Assembly (NCBI RefSeq): GCF_003337555.1
Contig: NZ_QPJK01000003.1
Span: 426,115 to 490,114, forward strand
Direction of reading: 5' to 3'
Length of the DNA stretch: 64,000 bases
Origin: Pseudorhodoferax soli
GTDB lineage: Bacteria; Pseudomonadota; Gammaproteobacteria; Burkholderiales; Burkholderiaceae_C
The notes below the pieces were generated by a model. It made no database searches, was not told the DNA's origin, and worked only from the letters and a program-made list of their open reading frames with translations. Position numbers and translations under genes: made by a program. Of this stretch, positions 10,951 through 18,043 are shown piece after piece (positions within the stretch are counted from its first letter, which is position 1; each line of letters starts with the position of its first letter).

Positions 10951-13149
10951 TCAGGCCAGGGCCGGGCAGCGCAGCCAGTCCAGCAAGGCACTGCGCTCCA
11001 TCGGTGCGGCGATGTAGAAACCTTGCCCTTCGTGGCAGCCCATGTCCACCAGCGCCTGCCAGGTGGCCGCGTCCTCGATGCCCTCGGCCAGCACCTGCAG
11101 GCCCAGCTTGCGGCCCAGCTGCGTGACGGTCTCGGCGATGCGCGCGCCCTGGGCCTCGCGCAGCTGGCGCACGAAGCCGCGGTCGATCTTGATGCGGTCC
11201 AGCGGCAGCCGCTCCAGGTAGCTCAGCGAGGAGTAGCCGGTGCCGAAGTCGTCGATCGCGATCGTGATGCCCTCGGCGCGCAGCGCCGACAGCGTGGACT
11301 CCAGCAGCTGCGTGGGCAGCACGGCCACCGATTCGGTGATCTCCAGTTCCAGGTGGTGGCCCTGCAGGCCGTTGGCGGCCAGCGCGCCGCGCACGGTCTC
11401 GAAGAAGCCGGGGTCGCGCAGCTGCGCGACCGAGACGTTGACCGCCATGTGCCGCGGCGCGCAGCCCAGGTCGAGCATCTCGCGCATGGTGGCGCAGGCC
11501 GTGGCCAGCACCCACTGGCCCAGCGGCACGATCAGCCCGGAGTGCTCGGCCACGGGAATGAACCGGTCCGGCGGGATCAGCCGGCCGTCCTCGGTGCGCC
11601 AGCGCAGCAGCGCCTCCAGGCCCACCAGCGCCTGGGTGCGCAGCTCGCGCTGCGGCTGGTAGACCAGGTACAGCCGCGCATCGTCGATGGCGGCGCGCAG
11701 CTCGGACAGCAGCAACGCGCGGTCGCGCGCCTCGGCCCCCATCTGCTCGGCGTAGCGCAGGTCCTGGCCGCGGTGGTCGCGCTTGGCGCGCTTGAGCGCG
11801 ATGGTGGCGTCCTTGACCAGGTCGGCACCGGCCTGCGCCACCGGGGGCAGCAGCACGTGGCCGCAGGTCAGCATGACCTTGTGTGGCACGCCGTCCACCA
11901 GCACCGGCTGGCGCACGCATTCCAGCAGGCGCTGCGGCACCACCTGGTCGGTCGTGCCGAGTGCGCCGAAGGTGTCCGGGCCCACGCGCGCCAGCAGCAC
12001 GCCAGGCGGCACGGCCTCGGCCAGCCGCCGCGCCACGGCCGCCAGCAGGCGGTCGCCGAAGCGGTGGCCCATCACGTCGTTGGCAGCGCTGAAGTCGTCG
12101 ATGTCCAGCAGCGCCAGGATGTGGTTGCGCACGCCGCGGCGCGCGCAGGCGTCCACCTTCTCGATGAAATGCGCGCGGTTGGGCAGGCCGACCAGGGTGT
12201 CGAAGTAGGCCGAACGGTGCAGCCTCTCGAGCAGGCCGCGGTTGTGCCGCAGCGTGCGCAGGTTGGTGCAGAACACGTCCAGCAGCTGGCGGTCGGCCGT
12301 GCTGCGCAGGCGCGGCGCCTGGACGTAGACGGCCATGTCCTGCCCGTCGCGGCGGCCCAGGTAGAGCGCCACGCCGCCCTGCTCGCCATAGACGTTGCCG
12401 CCCTGCACCAGCGCGCGCCGCAGCAGCTGCACGGCGCGGCTGGCGGGCAGGCCCTCCAGTGCCTGGCCGGCCAGGCCGGCGAAGCGGCCGGCCGCGGCCA
12501 GCACCTGGCCCGTGCCGCTGGCGGCAGCGCCGGCATCGCGCAGGCAGACCAGGCCTTCTTCTGGAACATCCAGCACCGCAGCCAGCTGCGTGACCACGGC
12601 GCCGGCGAAGGCATGCAGGTTGGTCTGCTCCAGCAGCGCGGTGCCGGACTGCACGATGCGCTCCAGGCTGCGCCGGCTGGCTTCGGTGTTGCACAGCTGC
12701 TCGTAGGCGCGCAGCGCCGCCGCCACGGTCGCCTGCAGGCGCGCCGGCGCAAGTTCTGCCTTGCTGCGGCAGTCGGCGATGTCGTGGCGCAGCAGCTGCT
12801 CCAGCGCCGGATCGGGCTGCTCGGTGCGCAGCACGACGCGCGTGTGCCGCAGGGCCAGGCCTTCGCGCAGGAACTCCACGAGGCCGAAGTCGGTGTGCGG
12901 CGGCGCGTCCACGCCCAGCAGCAGCACGGCCAGGTCGCGCTCCTGGCGCAGGACGGCGCGGGCCTGCGCTTCGGTGCGCGCCTGCAACAGCGTCACGGCG
13001 GCGCCGAACAGCACCAGGCCCTGCAGCCCGGCCTGGGCGGCGGCGTGCACGTCTTCGTCGCCGTCGACCACGAGCACGCGCCACTCGCGCGCCGCAGCCG
13101 CGGCCTGGATCGCGCCGGGCCAGGCCGGCGCTGATGCGAGTCCAGGCAT
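10951..13149 (-). CDS. Receiver-like/DUF3369/GGDEF/EAL protein, probable c-di-GMP phosphodiesterase
   Basis: A 732-residue cytosolic signalling protein. Residues about 22-115 form a receiver-like fold, 135-285 DUF3369, 320-470 a GGDEF fold and 490-730 an EAL domain. The GGDEF signature is replaced by GPDTF (390-394), so no cyclase activity is expected. The EAL domain keeps EALLRW (Glu512), NVS, LEITES, DDFGTGYSS, KIDRGF and EGIED, the full metal and catalytic set for c-di-GMP hydrolysis. The usual phospho-acceptor Asp appears to be Gly79 (LLLGVD), although Asp81 is close. The ATG lies one base after the siaD stop, so this phosphodiesterase is cotranscribed with a cyclase. Confidence 0.85.
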   Translation of the reverse strand: MPGLASAPAWPGAIQAAAAAREWRVLVVDGDEDVHAAAQAGLQGLVLFGAAVTLLQARTEAQARAVLRQERDLAVLLLGVDAPPHTDFGLVEFLREGLALRHTRVVLRTEQPDPALEQLLRHDIADCRSKAELAPARLQATVAAALRAYEQLCNTEASRRSLERIVQSGTALLEQTNLHAFAGAVVTQLAAVLDVPEEGLVCLRDAGAAASGTGQVLAAAGRFAGLAGQALEGLPASRAVQLLRRALVQGGNVYGEQGGVALYLGRRDGQDMAVYVQAPRLRSTADRQLLDVFCTNLRTLRHNRGLLERLHRSAYFDTLVGLPNRAHFIEKVDACARRGVRNHILALLDIDDFSAANDVMGHRFGDRLLAAVARRLAEAVPPGVLLARVGPDTFGALGTTDQVVPQRLLECVRQPVLVDGVPHKVMLTCGHVLLPPVAQAGADLVKDATIALKRAKRDHRGQDLRYAEQMGAEARDRALLLSELRAAIDDARLYLVYQPQRELRTQALVGLEALLRWRTEDGRLIPPDRFIPVAEHSGLIVPLGQWVLATACATMREMLDLGCAPRHMAVNVSVAQLRDPGFFETVRGALAANGLQGHHLELEITESVAVLPTQLLESTLSALRAEGITIAIDDFGTGYSSLSYLERLPLDRIKIDRGFVRQLREAQGARIAETVTQLGRKLGLQVLAEGIEDAATWQALVDMGCHEGQGFYIAAPMERSALLDWLRCPALA

Positions 13150-13150
13150 G

Positions 13151-13885
13151 TCAATCGTGGAGTTGCAGGTCGCCGCTGGCATGCGCCACGCAGTTGCGCC
13201 CGCCCCGCTTGGCGGCGTAGAGCGCCTCGTCGGCCTGGCCGTAGGCCGCATCGAAGCTGGCACCGCGGGCCAGGCAGCTGACGCCGAAGCTGGCCGTCAC
13301 GCGGCTGCCGTCGGGCAGGCCGAAGGCATGGGACTCGATGGCGCGGCGGGCACGCTGGGCCACGGCCTCGGCGGCCTCGGGGTCGTCGCGCGGCAGCAGC
13401 AGCGTGAACTCCTCGCCGCCGACGCGCCCGAGCAGGCCTTGCGCCGGTAGCGCCTGTTTCAGGCAGGCCACCACGCCCAGGATGACCTTGTCGCCCATGG
13501 GATGGCCGAAGCTGTCGTTGACGCGCTTGAAATGGTCGATGTCCAGCACGATCAGCGTGAGGCCGCCGCGCGCGAACAGCTGGTTCACGCGCTCGATGAT
13601 GGCGGCGCGGTTCAGCACGCCGGTCAGCGGATCGTGCGTGGCGCGGTACTGCAGTTCGCCGGCCAGGTCCTGCAGGCGCTGGTTCAGCTGGGTCATCTCC
13701 AGCTCGGCGCGGTCGCTGCGGCGCACCAGCCGGCGTGTCTCGCGCAGCAGGCGCTCGTAGGCGGCGAGCAGCTCGCCCAGCGCCGCGTGCGCGCCGTCCG
13801 GGCCGCCGGCATGGGCCGCGCGCGCGGCCAGCAGCGCGCGGTGTTCGGCCTCGAACAGGTCGGGCGCCTCGCCGAGCGCGTCCAT
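13151..13885 (-). CDS. siaD: Diguanylate cyclase SiaD
   Basis: A 244-residue cytosolic cyclase making c-di-GMP from two GTP. Residues about 45-80 form a coiled coil. The GGDEF domain follows with DPLTGVLNRA, LDIDHFKRVNDSFGH and an intact GGEEF motif. There is no RxxD product-inhibition site five residues before the motif, so it may lack that feedback. In Pseudomonas aeruginosa, unphosphorylated SiaC binds the stalk of SiaD and activates it. The same order siaC-siaD is kept here, with the ATG directly abutting the siaC stop (TGAATG). The assignment rests on this context together with length and domain layout. Confidence 0.85.
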   Translation of the reverse strand: MDALGEAPDLFEAEHRALLAARAAHAGGPDGAHAALGELLAAYERLLRETRRLVRRSDRAELEMTQLNQRLQDLAGELQYRATHDPLTGVLNRAAIIERVNQLFARGGLTLIVLDIDHFKRVNDSFGHPMGDKVILGVVACLKQALPAQGLLGRVGGEEFTLLLPRDDPEAAEAVAQRARRAIESHAFGLPDGSRVTASFGVSCLARGASFDAAYGQADEALYAAKRGGRNCVAHASGDLQLHD

Positions 13886-14275
13886 TCAGGCGGGCCCCAC
13901 GGGATGGCTGGTGAAGGCGATGGCGGGGAAGTCGTCGCGCAGTTCCTCGCCGAACTCGAGGATGGTGTCGTCCTCGGCGTCGTGGTACCAGTGCAGCGCC
14001 ACCTGGTTGCCGGCCTCCACGGCATCGTCCAGCGCCTCGATCAGGTTGAACAGCATCTTGGTGCTGGAACTGTTGAAGTAGGCCAGTGCGATGTGCACGG
14101 CGATCTGGCGCCCGTCCTGCTCTGCCAGGTAGGCCTTCAGTTGCGCGACGACCTGGCCGTAGAAGGCGGCGGCGTTCTCGGGATAGGACTCGCCGCGCAG
14201 GTGCAACTGGTGCTGGTCGAAGCGGAAGTCCACCTCGGGCGAGCTGGGCGTCGGGGCGATGTAGAAGTTGTCCAT
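13886..14275 (-). CDS. siaC: SiaC (DUF1987), phospho-switch activator of SiaD
   Basis: A 129-residue protein of the DUF1987/SiaC family. It is the partner-switch adaptor that SiaB phosphorylates and SiaA dephosphorylates. The family core IALAYFNSSSTKMLFNLIEAL contains the phospho-acceptor region (residues 69-72). P. aeruginosa SiaC uses Thr68 here, and the equivalent in this protein is probably Ser69, which I infer rather than know. Length matches the family. It sits between siaB (28-base gap) and siaD (abutting). Confidence 0.88.
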   Translation of the reverse strand: MDNFYIAPTPSSPEVDFRFDQHQLHLRGESYPENAAAFYGQVVAQLKAYLAEQDGRQIAVHIALAYFNSSSTKMLFNLIEALDDAVEAGNQVALHWYHDAEDDTILEFGEELRDDFPAIAFTSHPVGPA

Positions 14276-14303
14276 GCGTGATCTCGTGTCTGTTCGCAGC
14301 TTC

Positions 14304-14867
14304 TCAGATGGCCGCCTTGAGGTAGAAGACCGGCACGCCGCCGGCCGCGTCGAAGTCGAACTGCAGCGGTTCGCGCGCATCGCGTGCGACCGTCAACAGG
14401 CCGATGCCCGCGCCCTTGCTGCCCTCGGGCGTCTCCTCGCGCAGCGTCTTGCGGTAGGCCAGCTTGATTTCGTCCAGCGTCATGCTGCGCAGCGCCTCGA
14501 GCTTGCCGCGCAGCTCCTCGGCGATGCGGGCCTCGACCGGGTTGGCGCACAGCAGCAGGAAGCTGCCGTCGTTCTCGCGCCGGATGCAGACCGCGCCGTG
14601 GCGCACTTCGCCCTCGCGCTGGGTCGGCGAGGTCAGCGCGTCGGCCGAGTAGTGCACGATGTTCTGCGCCATCTCGATGAAGCAGGAGAACAGCTTGCGC
14701 CGCGTCGGCCCGGCCACGCCGGTGACTTCCAGCTGCAGCTTCACCGCGTCGGCCATGGCCGCCACGATGTGCTGCGAGAAGTAGCCCATGTAGTAGAAGA
14801 TGACCTGGTGCTCGCGCGCCAGGTGGAAGAAGGAGCCGTACTTGTCGGCGATGGCGTTGGCGGGCAT
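14304..14867 (-). CDS. siaB: SiaB (DUF6272) SiaC kinase
   Basis: A 187-residue GHKL-fold protein of the SiaB/DUF6272 family, which phosphorylates SiaC and so turns off SiaD. The N-box FIEMAQNIVHYS supplies the ATP/Mg asparagine and KGAGIGLLTVAR is the glycine-rich lid motif. The start MPANAIADKYG lies 8 bases after the siaA stop, with no strong ribosome site, suggesting coupling. Unlike anti-sigma kinases, no sigma-factor partner is encoded nearby. The neighbours siaC and siaA support the assignment. Confidence 0.88.
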   Translation of the reverse strand: MPANAIADKYGSFFHLAREHQVIFYYMGYFSQHIVAAMADAVKLQLEVTGVAGPTRRKLFSCFIEMAQNIVHYSADALTSPTQREGEVRHGAVCIRRENDGSFLLLCANPVEARIAEELRGKLEALRSMTLDEIKLAYRKTLREETPEGSKGAGIGLLTVARDAREPLQFDFDAAGGVPVFYLKAAI

Positions 14868-14875
14868 GGCGGCTT

Positions 14876-16108
14876 TCAGGCGGTGAAGCTGAAGAAGGTC
14901 AGGTCGTCGCGGCGGTGGTGTTCGCCCTGCCAGGCGCGCAGCGCCTCGAGCACCGCGGCGTTGACGGCCGCGGGCGTGCGGGTGGGCGCGCCGGCCACGG
15001 CTTCGCGCACGCGCTTCTTGCCCAGGGCGATCGCGCGCGGGCCGCCCACCTGGTCGATCAGGCCATCGGTGGTGATGAACACCAGGCTGCCAGCCTCGAG
15101 CGCGATTGCGTGGTTGTGCCAGGCGTATCCGGCCTCGCTGTCCACATAGCCCACGCCCTTGCGCTGGCCTTCGACCAGTTCCACCTCGCAGGCGCCCGGG
15201 CGCAGCACGAACAACGCCAGCCGCGCCCCTGCGAACACCAGGTGGCGCTGCGCGGGTTCGTACCAGAAGAAGGCCGCGTCCATGCCATCGTCCGAGCCCG
15301 GCGTGGCGTCCTCGCCGCCCTGCTGGCCCAGCGTCTGCTTGATGCTGCGGTTGACGGCGCCGAGCAGCAGCGCCGGGTCGCGCGGGCCGTGCTGCTCCAG
15401 CGCCTGTGTCAGCGCGCTCGAGGCGATCAGCGTCATGAACGCCCCGGGCACGCCGTGGCCGGTGCAATCGGCCACGGCGCCGAACCAGCCGCCCTCGCCT
15501 TCGCTGAACTGGTAGAAGTCGCCGCCCACCACGTCGCGCGGCTCCCAGACGAGGTCGGCCGAAGGGCAAACGCGCGCCAGCGCCTCGCGCGAGCTGCGCA
15601 GCGTGGACTGCTGGATCACGCTCGCGTACTCGATGCTGTGCATGATCTGGCGGTTGCGCGAGGCCTGCATGTCCGCCACCACGCGCATGAGCTGCAGCCC
15701 GTTGCCCACGCCCAGGAAGGCGCCGCCCTCGGTGATGATGAAGCCGTCGGACAGCGCCTTCTCACCATGCTCCACGGTCTTGAAGGTCAGCGTGTCGATG
15801 TCCATCGCGGACTCGACGATGAGCGGCTCCTTGTCCATGAAGGCGATGCAGCTCTTGCGCCCGTACAGCTCCATGCGGAACTGCTTGCTCATCTGCGACA
15901 GGAAGATGCTGCGGTTGATGAGGCCGATCGGCCGGCCCCCCTCCACCACCGGCAGGCTGACCAGGTCGCGGTGCCGGTTAAACATCTCCATGACCTTCTC
16001 GTTGGTCTCGTCGGTGGTCATGGCCGGCACCGCCGTGCACAGGTCGGCGGCACTGGGCTGGCGAAAGCGTGGGCGGGAATCGGTCAGGTACTCGGCAGCA
16101 GCGGACAT
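14876..16108 (-). CDS. siaA: SiaA-type PP2C/SpoIIE phosphatase with N-terminal CBS-like module
   Basis: A 410-residue soluble Mn/Mg phosphatase expected to dephosphorylate SiaC. The catalytic domain (about residues 185-410) has VVGGDFYQF, ADCTGHGVPGAFM, the DGMDAAFF acid, TTDGLIDQ and RRDDLTFF, so all metal ligands are present. P. aeruginosa SiaA is instead a membrane protein with a periplasmic sensor and HAMP. This one has no membrane helix but a CBS-pair-like N-terminus (LPVVEGGRPIGLINRSIFL and the ITEGGAFLGVGNGLQLM repeat). The input is therefore probably intracellular, perhaps a nucleotide. A GAGGA ribosome site lies in a small hairpin upstream. It is first in the operon. Confidence 0.82.
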   Translation of the reverse strand: MSAAAEYLTDSRPRFRQPSAADLCTAVPAMTTDETNEKVMEMFNRHRDLVSLPVVEGGRPIGLINRSIFLSQMSKQFRMELYGRKSCIAFMDKEPLIVESAMDIDTLTFKTVEHGEKALSDGFIITEGGAFLGVGNGLQLMRVVADMQASRNRQIMHSIEYASVIQQSTLRSSREALARVCPSADLVWEPRDVVGGDFYQFSEGEGGWFGAVADCTGHGVPGAFMTLIASSALTQALEQHGPRDPALLLGAVNRSIKQTLGQQGGEDATPGSDDGMDAAFFWYEPAQRHLVFAGARLALFVLRPGACEVELVEGQRKGVGYVDSEAGYAWHNHAIALEAGSLVFITTDGLIDQVGGPRAIALGKKRVREAVAGAPTRTPAAVNAAVLEALRAWQGEHHRRDDLTFFSFTA

Positions 16109-16289
16109 GGACAGCGCATCCTCAAATGTGAGGAAATGTTATGAACGCTGCATGTCATCTTCATGACGCAGTGGGTCGATAGACGAAGCTGTGGCCGCCC
16201 AGACTCAGCCTTTGAAGCGCGGCCCAAATGCCCGTGCTTATGATCAACGACATCGACGGCCCGTTCAGCTGGCCTGTCACCAATGGAGA
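16109..16289. promoter_or_regulatory. Divergent intergenic region between siaA and the ATPase cassette
   Basis: This 181-base region separates the core signalling operon from the low-GC cassette. On the siaA side, CCTCA-N4-TGAGG (16120-16133) is an inverted repeat whose siaA-proximal arm contains the GAGGA ribosome site. It could sequester that site in a hairpin. Further out, GTCAT-CTTC-ATGAC (16154-16167) is an operator-like dyad. A 24-codon open frame (16228-16302, starting MPVLMINDIDGP) overlaps the ATPase start and could be a leader peptide. No clear -35/-10 pair was found. Composition drops in GC across this interval. Confidence 0.4.
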
Positions 16290-17459
16290 ATGGCTGTGCT
16301 GATCACCCGTTTGATCTTGAAAAACTGGCGCAACTTCCGCGATGCGGACATCTCGCTGTCTGCGCGCAGTTATGTGATCGGCGCGAATGCCGCTGGGAAG
16401 TCCAATCTCCTCGACGTGTTTCGGTTCCTTCGCACCATTGCGCAAGCAGATGGCGGCGGCTTGCAGAAGGCTCTGAAAGAGCGCGGAAATCTTGCCAAAT
16501 TGCGCAGCTTGCATGCGCGCCGTGACCCCGAAGTCAGCATCGAGGTCGAACTTTCCGATGACCCAGGCGACACGGTCCCCCGTTGGCGCTACGCGCTTGC
16601 GTTCAAGTCCGAAGGAAAAGGGCAGCAACGTGTGCTGATCACCCGCGAGGAAGTGTTCCGGGATGGAAAACGGGTGCTGCAACGGCCAGACCGAGGCGAT
16701 GACCTTGACCCGGTACGCCTGACGCAGACGCACTTGGAGCAGATCAACAACAACGCAGAGTTTCGAGGTCTGGCGGAATTCTTTTCTGCAACCACCTATT
16801 TGCACCTCGTTCCGCAATTGCTCAAGCACAGCGACGAGATCGCGGGCAGGTTGGTTGAAAGCGACCCTTTCGGCCAGGGTTTGTTGCAACGGATTGCCCG
16901 AACACCGGCGAAGACACAAGCGGCAAGGCTGGAACGTATCCGCAAGGCATTGGAAGTAGCAGTGCCCCAGTTCTCCGAGATGCGGTTTTCAAAGGATGAA
17001 GCCACCGGTGCACCCCATTTGGAAGCCCGCTTCCGACACTGGCGTGAGCACGGCGCCTGGCAGCGGGAGGACCAGTTTTCAGATGGCACCTTGCGTCTTA
17101 TCGGCTTGCTGTGGTCGCTGCAGGAGGGCGACGGCATGCTGCTGCTGGAAGAACCGGAGCTTTCGCTGAACGACGCCATCGTCGAGTACATCCCTTTGAT
17201 GATCGACCGGGTACTGCGCGGGCGCAAGAAGGGGGCGTTTCTGCGTCAGGTCGTGGTGAGTACGCACAGCGACAACCTGATCGGGGCAGTGCAGGATCCT
17301 AGTTCGGTGTTGTTGCTGGAGCCCGGCGCCAATGGCTCAGTCGCGCGAGCGCCTGATCGCGCGGAATTGGATGCGATGGAGGGCGGATTGAATCCCGCAG
17401 AGGTGCTGTTGCCGAAGACACGGCCCACGGGCGTGGAACAGATGGGTCTCTTCGTGTGA
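16290..17459 (+). CDS. COG4637-type predicted ATPase (SMC/OLD/RecF-like), first gene of a two-gene cassette
   Basis: A 389-residue ABC-type ATPase. The Walker A motif is GANAAGKS (residues 31-38) in a RecF-like N-terminus (ITRLILKNWRNFRDADI). Mid-protein signatures include LTQTHLEQINNN and QFSDGTLRLIGLLW. The Walker B motif LLLEEPELS (Glu287/288) and the switch His in VVVSTHSDNL follow. No coiled-coil arm or TOPRIM domain is present in this chain. Base use is clearly less GC-rich than the flanks. A GGAG site lies one base before the ATG but seven bases before an in-frame GTG at 16296, so the true start may be the latter. The stop overlaps the next gene. Confidence 0.85.
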   Translation: MAVLITRLILKNWRNFRDADISLSARSYVIGANAAGKSNLLDVFRFLRTIAQADGGGLQKALKERGNLAKLRSLHARRDPEVSIEVELSDDPGDTVPRWRYALAFKSEGKGQQRVLITREEVFRDGKRVLQRPDRGDDLDPVRLTQTHLEQINNNAEFRGLAEFFSATTYLHLVPQLLKHSDEIAGRLVESDPFGQGLLQRIARTPAKTQAARLERIRKALEVAVPQFSEMRFSKDEATGAPHLEARFRHWREHGAWQREDQFSDGTLRLIGLLWSLQEGDGMLLLEEPELSLNDAIVEYIPLMIDRVLRGRKKGAFLRQVVVSTHSDNLIGAVQDPSSVLLLEPGANGSVARAPDRAELDAMEGGLNPAEVLLPKTRPTGVEQMGLFV

Positions 17460-18043
17460 CGCAGCTTTACGTGATCGGCGAGGACGCTCTATGTTGCGCC
17501 CTCGGTGAGCGTTTGACGCGGCGTGTGCTCGGGTGGACTCTGGCACAACCTCCAGTCGATGCAAAAGGCGTTACGAGGCTCCAGGGTAATCTTGGGCGCT
17601 ATGCCGGCCTGGCGCACGTGCATCCGGTCCTGTGCGTGGCGGACGCTGATCACCATTGCCCTGTGGACTGGGTCCGGCGCTGGAAACCCAAGCACGCGTC
17701 GGAGAGATTTTTGCTACGACTAGCTGTAACGGAAGCTGAAAGTTGGCTGCTCGCCGATGCCGAGGGGCTGGCCGCGTTTCTGAAAATCCCCAAGGTGCGG
17801 GTCGCATCGCGCCCTGATGAACTGCGCGACCCAAAGCGTGAGGTCCTGCATCTTGCGAGCCAGTCGCGCGAGCAGTTGATTCGCCAAGAGGTGGTCTCGG
17901 CATTCGACCGCAGCAAGGCTGGAACAGGGTACAACGCCCATCTCTGCAACTTCGTTCGCCAGCACTGGGACCCGCTCCGCGCAATGTCGTGTTCTCCAAG
18001 TTTGGCTCGTGCAGTGCGAAGCTTGCAGTCCCTGGTGGGCTAG
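17456..18043 (+). CDS. DUF4276-like TOPRIM-fold protein, second gene of the ATPase cassette
   Basis: A 195-residue protein starting with GTG in a GTGA overlap with the ATPase stop, so the two are translated together. It has the features I associate with DUF4276/OLD-type TOPRIM domains: an early acid in LYVIGEDALC (Glu9), the DxD pair in VADADHHCP (Asp63, Asp65), and LAVTEAESWLLAD (Glu93, Glu95, Trp97). These would form a metal-binding nuclease or topoisomerase-primase-like site. Separate ATPase and TOPRIM partners resemble the arrangement of PARIS- and OLD-type defence systems, but membership of a named system is not shown. GC is low relative to neighbours. Confidence 0.7.
   Translation: MTQLYVIGEDALCCALGERLTRRVLGWTLAQPPVDAKGVTRLQGNLGRYAGLAHVHPVLCVADADHHCPVDWVRRWKPKHASERFLLRLAVTEAESWLLADAEGLAAFLKIPKVRVASRPDELRDPKREVLHLASQSREQLIRQEVVSAFDRSKAGTGYNAHLCNFVRQHWDPLRAMSCSPSLARAVRSLQSLVG

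Follow-up and report, generated by a model that had tools for sequence, protein, structure and literature searches.

We analysed a 64,000-nucleotide stretch of the Pseudorhodoferax soli genome (contig NZ_QPJK01000003.1, positions 426,115 to 490,114; hereafter the window), in which five consecutive genes on the minus strand, from window position 16108 to 10951, encode a SiaABCD signaling system followed by a fifth protein with receiver-like (REC-like), DUF3369, GGDEF and EAL domains. In PMC8457831 and PMC7647112, the Pseudomonas aeruginosa system is described as a switch in which SiaB phosphorylates SiaC, SiaA dephosphorylates SiaC, and free SiaC assembles active SiaD dimers, whose product cyclic di-GMP (c-di-GMP) then represses SiaD via its I-site. 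The genes and features of the window locus are as follows.

14876..16108, minus strand: siaA, soluble PP2C (SpoIIE-type) phosphatase, CBS module plus PP2C, 410 amino acids (Pfam, PDB match, hydropathy)
15674..16030, minus strand: CBS module of SiaA, about residues 27-145 (Pfam and profile search)
14304..14867, minus strand: siaB, SiaB-family kinase (DUF6272), 187 amino acids (Pfam, NCBIfam)
13886..14275, minus strand: siaC, SiaC-family phosphoprotein, 129 amino acids (Pfam, PDB match)
14069..14071, minus strand: SiaC Ser69, aligning with phospho-Thr68 of P. aeruginosa SiaC (alignment)
13151..13885, minus strand: siaD, diguanylate cyclase with intact GGEEF, 244 amino acids (Pfam, NCBIfam, PDB match)
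13703..13735, minus strand: single SiaC-docking motif in the SiaD stalk, RRLVRRSDRAE (alignment, pattern)
13406..13447, minus strand: SiaD PAQGLLGRVGGEEF, P147 and G150 in place of the Arg and Asp of the RxxD I-site, active-site motif retained (alignment)
10951..13149, minus strand: fifth gene, REC-like/DUF3369/GGDEF/EAL protein, presumed c-di-GMP phosphodiesterase, 732 amino acids (Pfam, motifs)
12727..13149, minus strand: receiver-like domain, Gly79 in place of the phospho-acceptor Asp (alignment)
12220..12726, minus strand: DUF3369 domain (Pfam)
11767..12210, minus strand: degenerate GGDEF domain, GPDTF (Pfam, motif)
11002..11703, minus strand: EAL domain, catalytic motifs intact (Pfam, motifs)

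An earlier note, made from the sequence alone, had proposed the order phosphatase-SiaB-SiaC-SiaD, and both the Pfam and NCBIfam family assignments and the coordinates confirmed it: a PP2C phosphatase, a SiaB-family kinase, a SiaC phosphoprotein and a GGDEF-bearing SiaD stand in one string. The Pfam scores were 75 bits for SpoIIE in SiaA, 127 for DUF6272 in SiaB, 140 for SiaC and 126 for GGDEF in SiaD, with 138 (DUF3369), 82 (GGDEF) and 232 (EAL) in the fifth protein. The NCBIfam equivalogs for P. aeruginosa-type SiaA, SiaB, SiaC and SiaD were not reached (193, 72, 86.5 and 160 bits against cut-offs of 700, 225, 150 and 290), and the SiaB subfamily model NF038262 was (195 bits, cut-off 85). In the PDB, the only match to SiaA was SiaA-PP2C 6k4e (E 1.7e-46), while the best relatives of SiaC and SiaD were the P. 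aeruginosa proteins themselves (6kko/6k4f and 7e6g). From siaA to the EAL gene the intergenic gaps are 8, 28, 0 and 1 nucleotides; the siaC stop abuts the siaD start (TGA, then ATG), and only one base lies between the end of siaD and the start of the EAL gene, as the earlier note had read. A promoter and terminator scan returned 0 sigma-70-type promoters, one terminator-like site before siaA and 0 within the gene string, where shuffled sequences give 2.0 terminators, a background that makes the scan uninformative. The host genome contains one SiaC match, and the nearest named records by SiaA identity, among the best 80 of 246 relatives, were three from Pseudorhodoferax (91-92%) and one from Variovorax boronicumulans (88%), in a search that may omit the window's own record; this places the host within the Comamonadaceae, close to Pseudorhodoferax. 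The window system thus shares with P. aeruginosa SiaABCD the gene order, the PP2C phosphatase, the SiaB-type kinase, SiaC, and a GGDEF SiaD with SiaC-docking motif and GGEEF, but differs in its soluble CBS-SiaA, Ser69, one docking motif, missing RxxD and appended EAL gene.

P. aeruginosa SiaA is reported as a sensor of membrane perturbation (PMC12834913). The earlier note had described the window SiaA as lacking membrane helices, and by hydropathy none was found in it, the highest 19-residue Kyte-Doolittle mean being 1.28. Since an in-frame stop lies 30 nucleotides before the siaA ATG, a start further upstream (ATG, GTG or TTG) is excluded. The same note had seen a CBS-like module in place of the sensor, and by profile comparison the SiaA N-terminus is indeed a divergent CBS module. 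Pfam listed no CBS domain in full-length SiaA at E 0.1; the first 150 residues alone scored 26.5 bits against PF00571 (cut-off 24) over residues 27-70, and a profile built from 31 SiaA N-terminal modules matched CBS proteins in the PDB. The best whole-sequence E of this search, 4e-16, is the sum of several weak stretches in a many-CBS protein, and the matches that covered both halves of the module ranged from about 2e-7 (9zni_6) to 6e-5 (AcuB, 9s4w). SiaA-type CBS modules also occur in other open reading frames (ORFs) beside sia loci, at L138:3742-4134 (-), L138:8314-8715 (+), L082:10454-10855 (-) and L146:12273-12674 (-), and three sia loci contain EAL-CBS-GGDEF domain strings.

In overlapping genome samples, SiaC was present in 61 of 399 members of the order, 28 of 299 members of the family and 67 of 398 members of the phylum. 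We assembled 221 loci, namely 140 places fetched from among the SiaC matches, 80 named loci from a SiaA search, which are the best 80 of 246 and of the CBS class by construction, and the window. Removal of 13 duplicates with the same SiaC and SiaD ends left 208 distinct loci, among which close relatives remain; their genes were labeled by profiles built from the window proteins. SiaA was a helix-free CBS-PP2C protein in 126 of these loci (CBS class) and a PP2C protein carrying one or more hydrophobic helices in 55 (membrane class); 11 loci had some other form of SiaA, and in 16 none was seen. The hydropathy maximum was 0.97-1.78 in CBS-PP2C SiaA and 1.81-3.35 in the helix-bearing proteins, with the division at 1.8 set by us. 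In 72 of the 208 loci, some of whose stretches end early, no GGDEF-only gene was found close by in the same orientation; these loci share SiaB and SiaC with the others, mostly plus a PP2C protein. Among the best 80 of 246 relatives, the CBS-SiaA group includes Cupriavidus, Paraburkholderia, Azonexus and some Pseudomonas. In a tree of PP2C, SiaB and SiaC from 134 four-gene loci, CBS-SiaA and membrane-SiaA systems grouped apart, with a single change from one type to the other; the tree was built quickly and has long branches, and false joins between the two groups are possible.

Many CBS pairs bind adenine nucleotides, and the earlier note had suggested adenylate as the ligand of SiaA, which would make SiaA an energy sensor whose CBS module binds adenosine mono- or triphosphate (AMP or ATP) and tunes the phosphatase. 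The CBS module itself is real, and [ST]xxD, which we take to be the ribose-binding motif of nucleotide-binding CBS domains, appears in the second CBS domain in 7 of 126 CBS-class loci (2 of the 100 with siaD). It is absent from that domain in the other 119, including the window, and from the first CBS domain in all 126 (one row misaligned). The window stretches at these positions read GLINRSIF and GVGNGLQL, and conservation in the module is concentrated instead in the stretch KSCIAFMDK. Since the ribose motif is missing, adenylate sensing by SiaA is not supported, and we regard the energy sensor as very unlikely.

RxxD is the recognized signature of the I-site. At its position, SiaD reads REYD in P. 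aeruginosa and PAQG in the window, where GGEEF is intact. RxxD was found in 0 of 100 distinct CBS-class loci, all 100 of which keep GGEEF, versus 32 of 34 membrane-class loci, the exceptions being L146, where it is absent, and L106, where it was unreadable in the ORF taken. Restricting the comparison to the 140 loci not drawn via the window SiaA (before duplicate removal) gave 0 of 32 CBS-class and 32 of 34 membrane-class SiaD proteins with RxxD. Two further loci, L171 and L197, have a siaD with RxxD but no PP2C in the stretch and were placed in neither class. The two classes differ in the stalk as well. The window SiaD combines GG(D/E)EF with a SiaC-docking stalk that bears one docking motif instead of two, and a single motif was found in all 100 CBS-class SiaD proteins (97 matched the pattern and three were identified by eye), whereas the 33 membrane-class proteins scored had two matches in 27 cases, three in two and one in four. 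The SiaC phosphosite was Ser in all 100 CBS-class loci with siaD; in the membrane class it was Thr in 29 of 34 and Ser in 5, and in P. aeruginosa SiaC it is T68 (PMC7647112). SiaC Ser69 is the predicted target of SiaB phosphorylation and SiaA dephosphorylation in the window.

These comparisons extend what the earlier note had seen in one locus. Judged by the aligned loci, the soluble SiaA is the mark of a whole group whose SiaD lacks RxxD and has one dock, and the EAL gene is an addition to it, present beside siaD in 36 of 100 CBS-class loci. The missing RxxD, the single docking motif and the Ser phosphosite are, by our alignments, newly noted traits of the CBS class, and the linked proteins described below add the kept EAL motifs, the degenerate GGDEF motif and the frequent loss of the receiver Asp. 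In the open-access literature, a scope that leaves out most subscription papers, we found neither a soluble CBS-type SiaA nor a sia operon with a phosphodiesterase gene described.

A DUF3369-GGDEF-EAL gene directly follows siaD in 31 distinct loci including the window, all of the CBS class. The five-gene order is therefore no chance arrangement, and neither of the observations that would have spoken against the earlier note, a membrane helix in SiaA or unlinking of the EAL gene in relatives, was made. Two of the 31 records are named Pantoea sp. 18069 and a gammaproteobacterial metagenome-assembled genome, and both stand among Comamonadaceae on the tree. Taking for each gene the start codon nearest to the siaD stop, a choice that favors closeness, the 31 starts lay at -11, -4, +1 or +17 to +28 nucleotides, positions that fit translational coupling with siaD. 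Each of the 31 linked DUF3369 genes, the window's included, encodes intact EAL, NVS, ExTE, DDFGTG, IKID and AEGIE motifs, in agreement with the intact EAL domain claimed earlier, and the GGDEF motif is degenerate, G[APST]DTF, in every one. The D[IV]DDF motif, which contributes to the nucleotide site, is likewise kept in all 31. Control of an EAL domain by guanosine triphosphate (GTP) is known from other proteins, and because D[IV]DDF is kept, such control is possible in the linked proteins.

The earlier label "receiver-like" was well chosen, since Pfam lists no receiver family for the window fifth protein and Gly79 occupies the place of the phospho-acceptor Asp that a functional receiver would have. 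Of the 31 linked proteins, 17 keep the receiver Asp, and 14 have another residue or a gap in its place. Unlinked REC-DUF3369-GGDEF-EAL proteins share the domain order, the degenerate GGDEF motif and the EAL domain with the linked protein. There were 31 unlinked DUF3369 matches in 20 genomes, of which 21 were fetched; 19 of these 21 have the receiver Asp, while of the remaining two one is truncated by the end of its contig and the other could not be resolved. One such gene lies in the host genome itself (L282, G000:C1 at about 84 kb), with an intact receiver Asp and AGDTF as its GGDEF motif. Three of the 20 genomes (G204, G464 and G670) have no DUF3369 match, and all three have a CBS-class sia locus. 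A tree of 57 proteins united the linked DUF3369-GGDEF-EAL genes in one clade (100%) without any of 19 unlinked paralogues; the clade also includes L064, a linked copy without recognized DUF3369.

EAL genes without recognized DUF3369 follow siaD in five further CBS-class loci and two of the membrane class. Besides L064, those in the CBS class are L236 (CSS-EAL) and L247, L082 and L084 (GGDEF-EAL, grouping together in the EAL tree), and those in the membrane class are L104 and L112 (PAS/GAF-GGDEF-EAL). The position after siaD is thus taken by EAL genes of at least four kinds. We also considered whether the EAL gene is tied to I-site loss inside the CBS class, and rejected this, as RxxD is missing in all 100 loci, EAL gene or not. 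A crude look at the longest ORF after siaD in 63 EAL-less CBS-class loci, ten of them Pfam-scanned, revealed no shared non-EAL fifth gene. In a Silvimonas locus (L262:10370-12940 (+)) that ORF has a PgaA barrel domain, which makes exopolysaccharide export a possible output of the switch. A protoglobin-GGDEF-EAL gene at L129:10467-12536 (+), in a sia locus where siaD was not found, suggests an oxygen input.

Taken together, we think it probable, on the sequence evidence, that the window encodes a cytoplasmic variant of SiaABCD, with a CBS-bearing SiaA, a SiaD without I-site feedback and a co-made EAL brake. A cytoplasmic cue at the CBS module of SiaA, arriving directly or through a partner, would lead its PP2C domain to dephosphorylate SiaC Ser69, and SiaB would rephosphorylate it. 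Unphosphorylated SiaC would dock on the single stalk motif of SiaD and turn c-di-GMP synthesis on. Unlike in P. aeruginosa, c-di-GMP would inhibit SiaD little or not at all, since the RxxD I-site is lost. In Comamonadaceae, the presumed EAL phosphodiesterase with its decaying receiver, probably made together with SiaD, would then limit how far the c-di-GMP pool can rise or determine how soon it is turned off, and this protein appears to be the likeliest c-di-GMP brake there. The internal signal and the balanced synthesis and breakdown of c-di-GMP proposed in the earlier note remain inferences.

Several observations weigh against the cytoplasmic variant with an EAL brake. On the sia tree, the SiaA class changed once and RxxD three times (counting L106 as lacking it), which provides one independent pair; class and I-site thus changed together about once, and are group marks rather than proof of a causal link. 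An Arg at the offset equivalent to R201, the residue mutated in P. aeruginosa SiaD to abolish feedback (PMC8457831), is present in 35 of 100 CBS-class SiaD proteins, by eye the window's among them, and KxxD is present in four, so that weak feedback may remain. If feedback inhibition persisted through such other residues, the loss of RxxD would be inconsequential. However, RxxD and KxxD, the former being the I-site signature, are both missing in 96 of 100, and in the same source c-di-GMP inhibits P. aeruginosa SiaD via an I-site lined by R170 and D173. We therefore consider persisting feedback unlikely.

The EAL protein could also be a co-transcribed passenger of another pathway, or a c-di-GMP receptor, that does not set the SiaD pool. 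No EAL neighbor is present in 64 of the 100 CBS-class loci with siaD, all without RxxD, although in four of these (L222, L224, L257 and L271) the sequence extends no more than 2.6 kb past siaD. On the sia tree, a minimum of 10 changes is needed to explain where an EAL neighbor is present, and a minimum of 6 for a neighbor of the DUF3369 type, which means that the siaD-EAL linkage is not fixed. The host genome moreover has 32 EAL matches, partial ones included. On the other hand, a passenger would sit poorly with the tight siaD-EAL spacing in all 31 DUF3369 loci (nearest start chosen), with the separation of the linked clade from the 19 paralogues in the tree, with the catalytic motifs kept in 31 of 31, and with EAL genes of other architectures at the same place elsewhere. 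We judge a passenger or receptor role somewhat unlikely, and retain the EAL protein as the presumed brake of the cytoplasmic SiaABCD variant.

Divergent from siaA, at 16191-18043 (+), lie genes for an AAA_21 ATPase and a 195-residue DUF4276-like protein (Pfam match below cut-off). The two match HEC-01A (E 2.5e-144) and HEC-01B (E 4.3e-64), respectively, which PADLOC lists as a candidate defence pair.

For the family of SiaABCD systems, we hold the chances to be about even that two evolutionarily separate types exist, a membrane type with feedback and mostly two docks, and a cytoplasmic CBS type without feedback and with one dock. In the latter, SiaC phosphorylation would take over control from the I-site of the cyclase, joined in several lineages, independently of each other, by a phosphodiesterase gene added directly behind siaD. 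A SiaD with one dock predicts a SiaD2:SiaC2 complex, in contrast to the solved SiaD2:SiaC4 complex. CBS-type systems may be under-annotated, because the four window Sia proteins score below the P. aeruginosa-type cut-offs, and among the best 80 of 246 relatives the CBS type is spread over many Betaproteobacteria and some Pseudomonas. The two types would form a natural pair of one switch with and without an I-site, and with membrane versus cytoplasmic input, in which product feedback and an operon-encoded phosphodiesterase could be compared beyond mutants.

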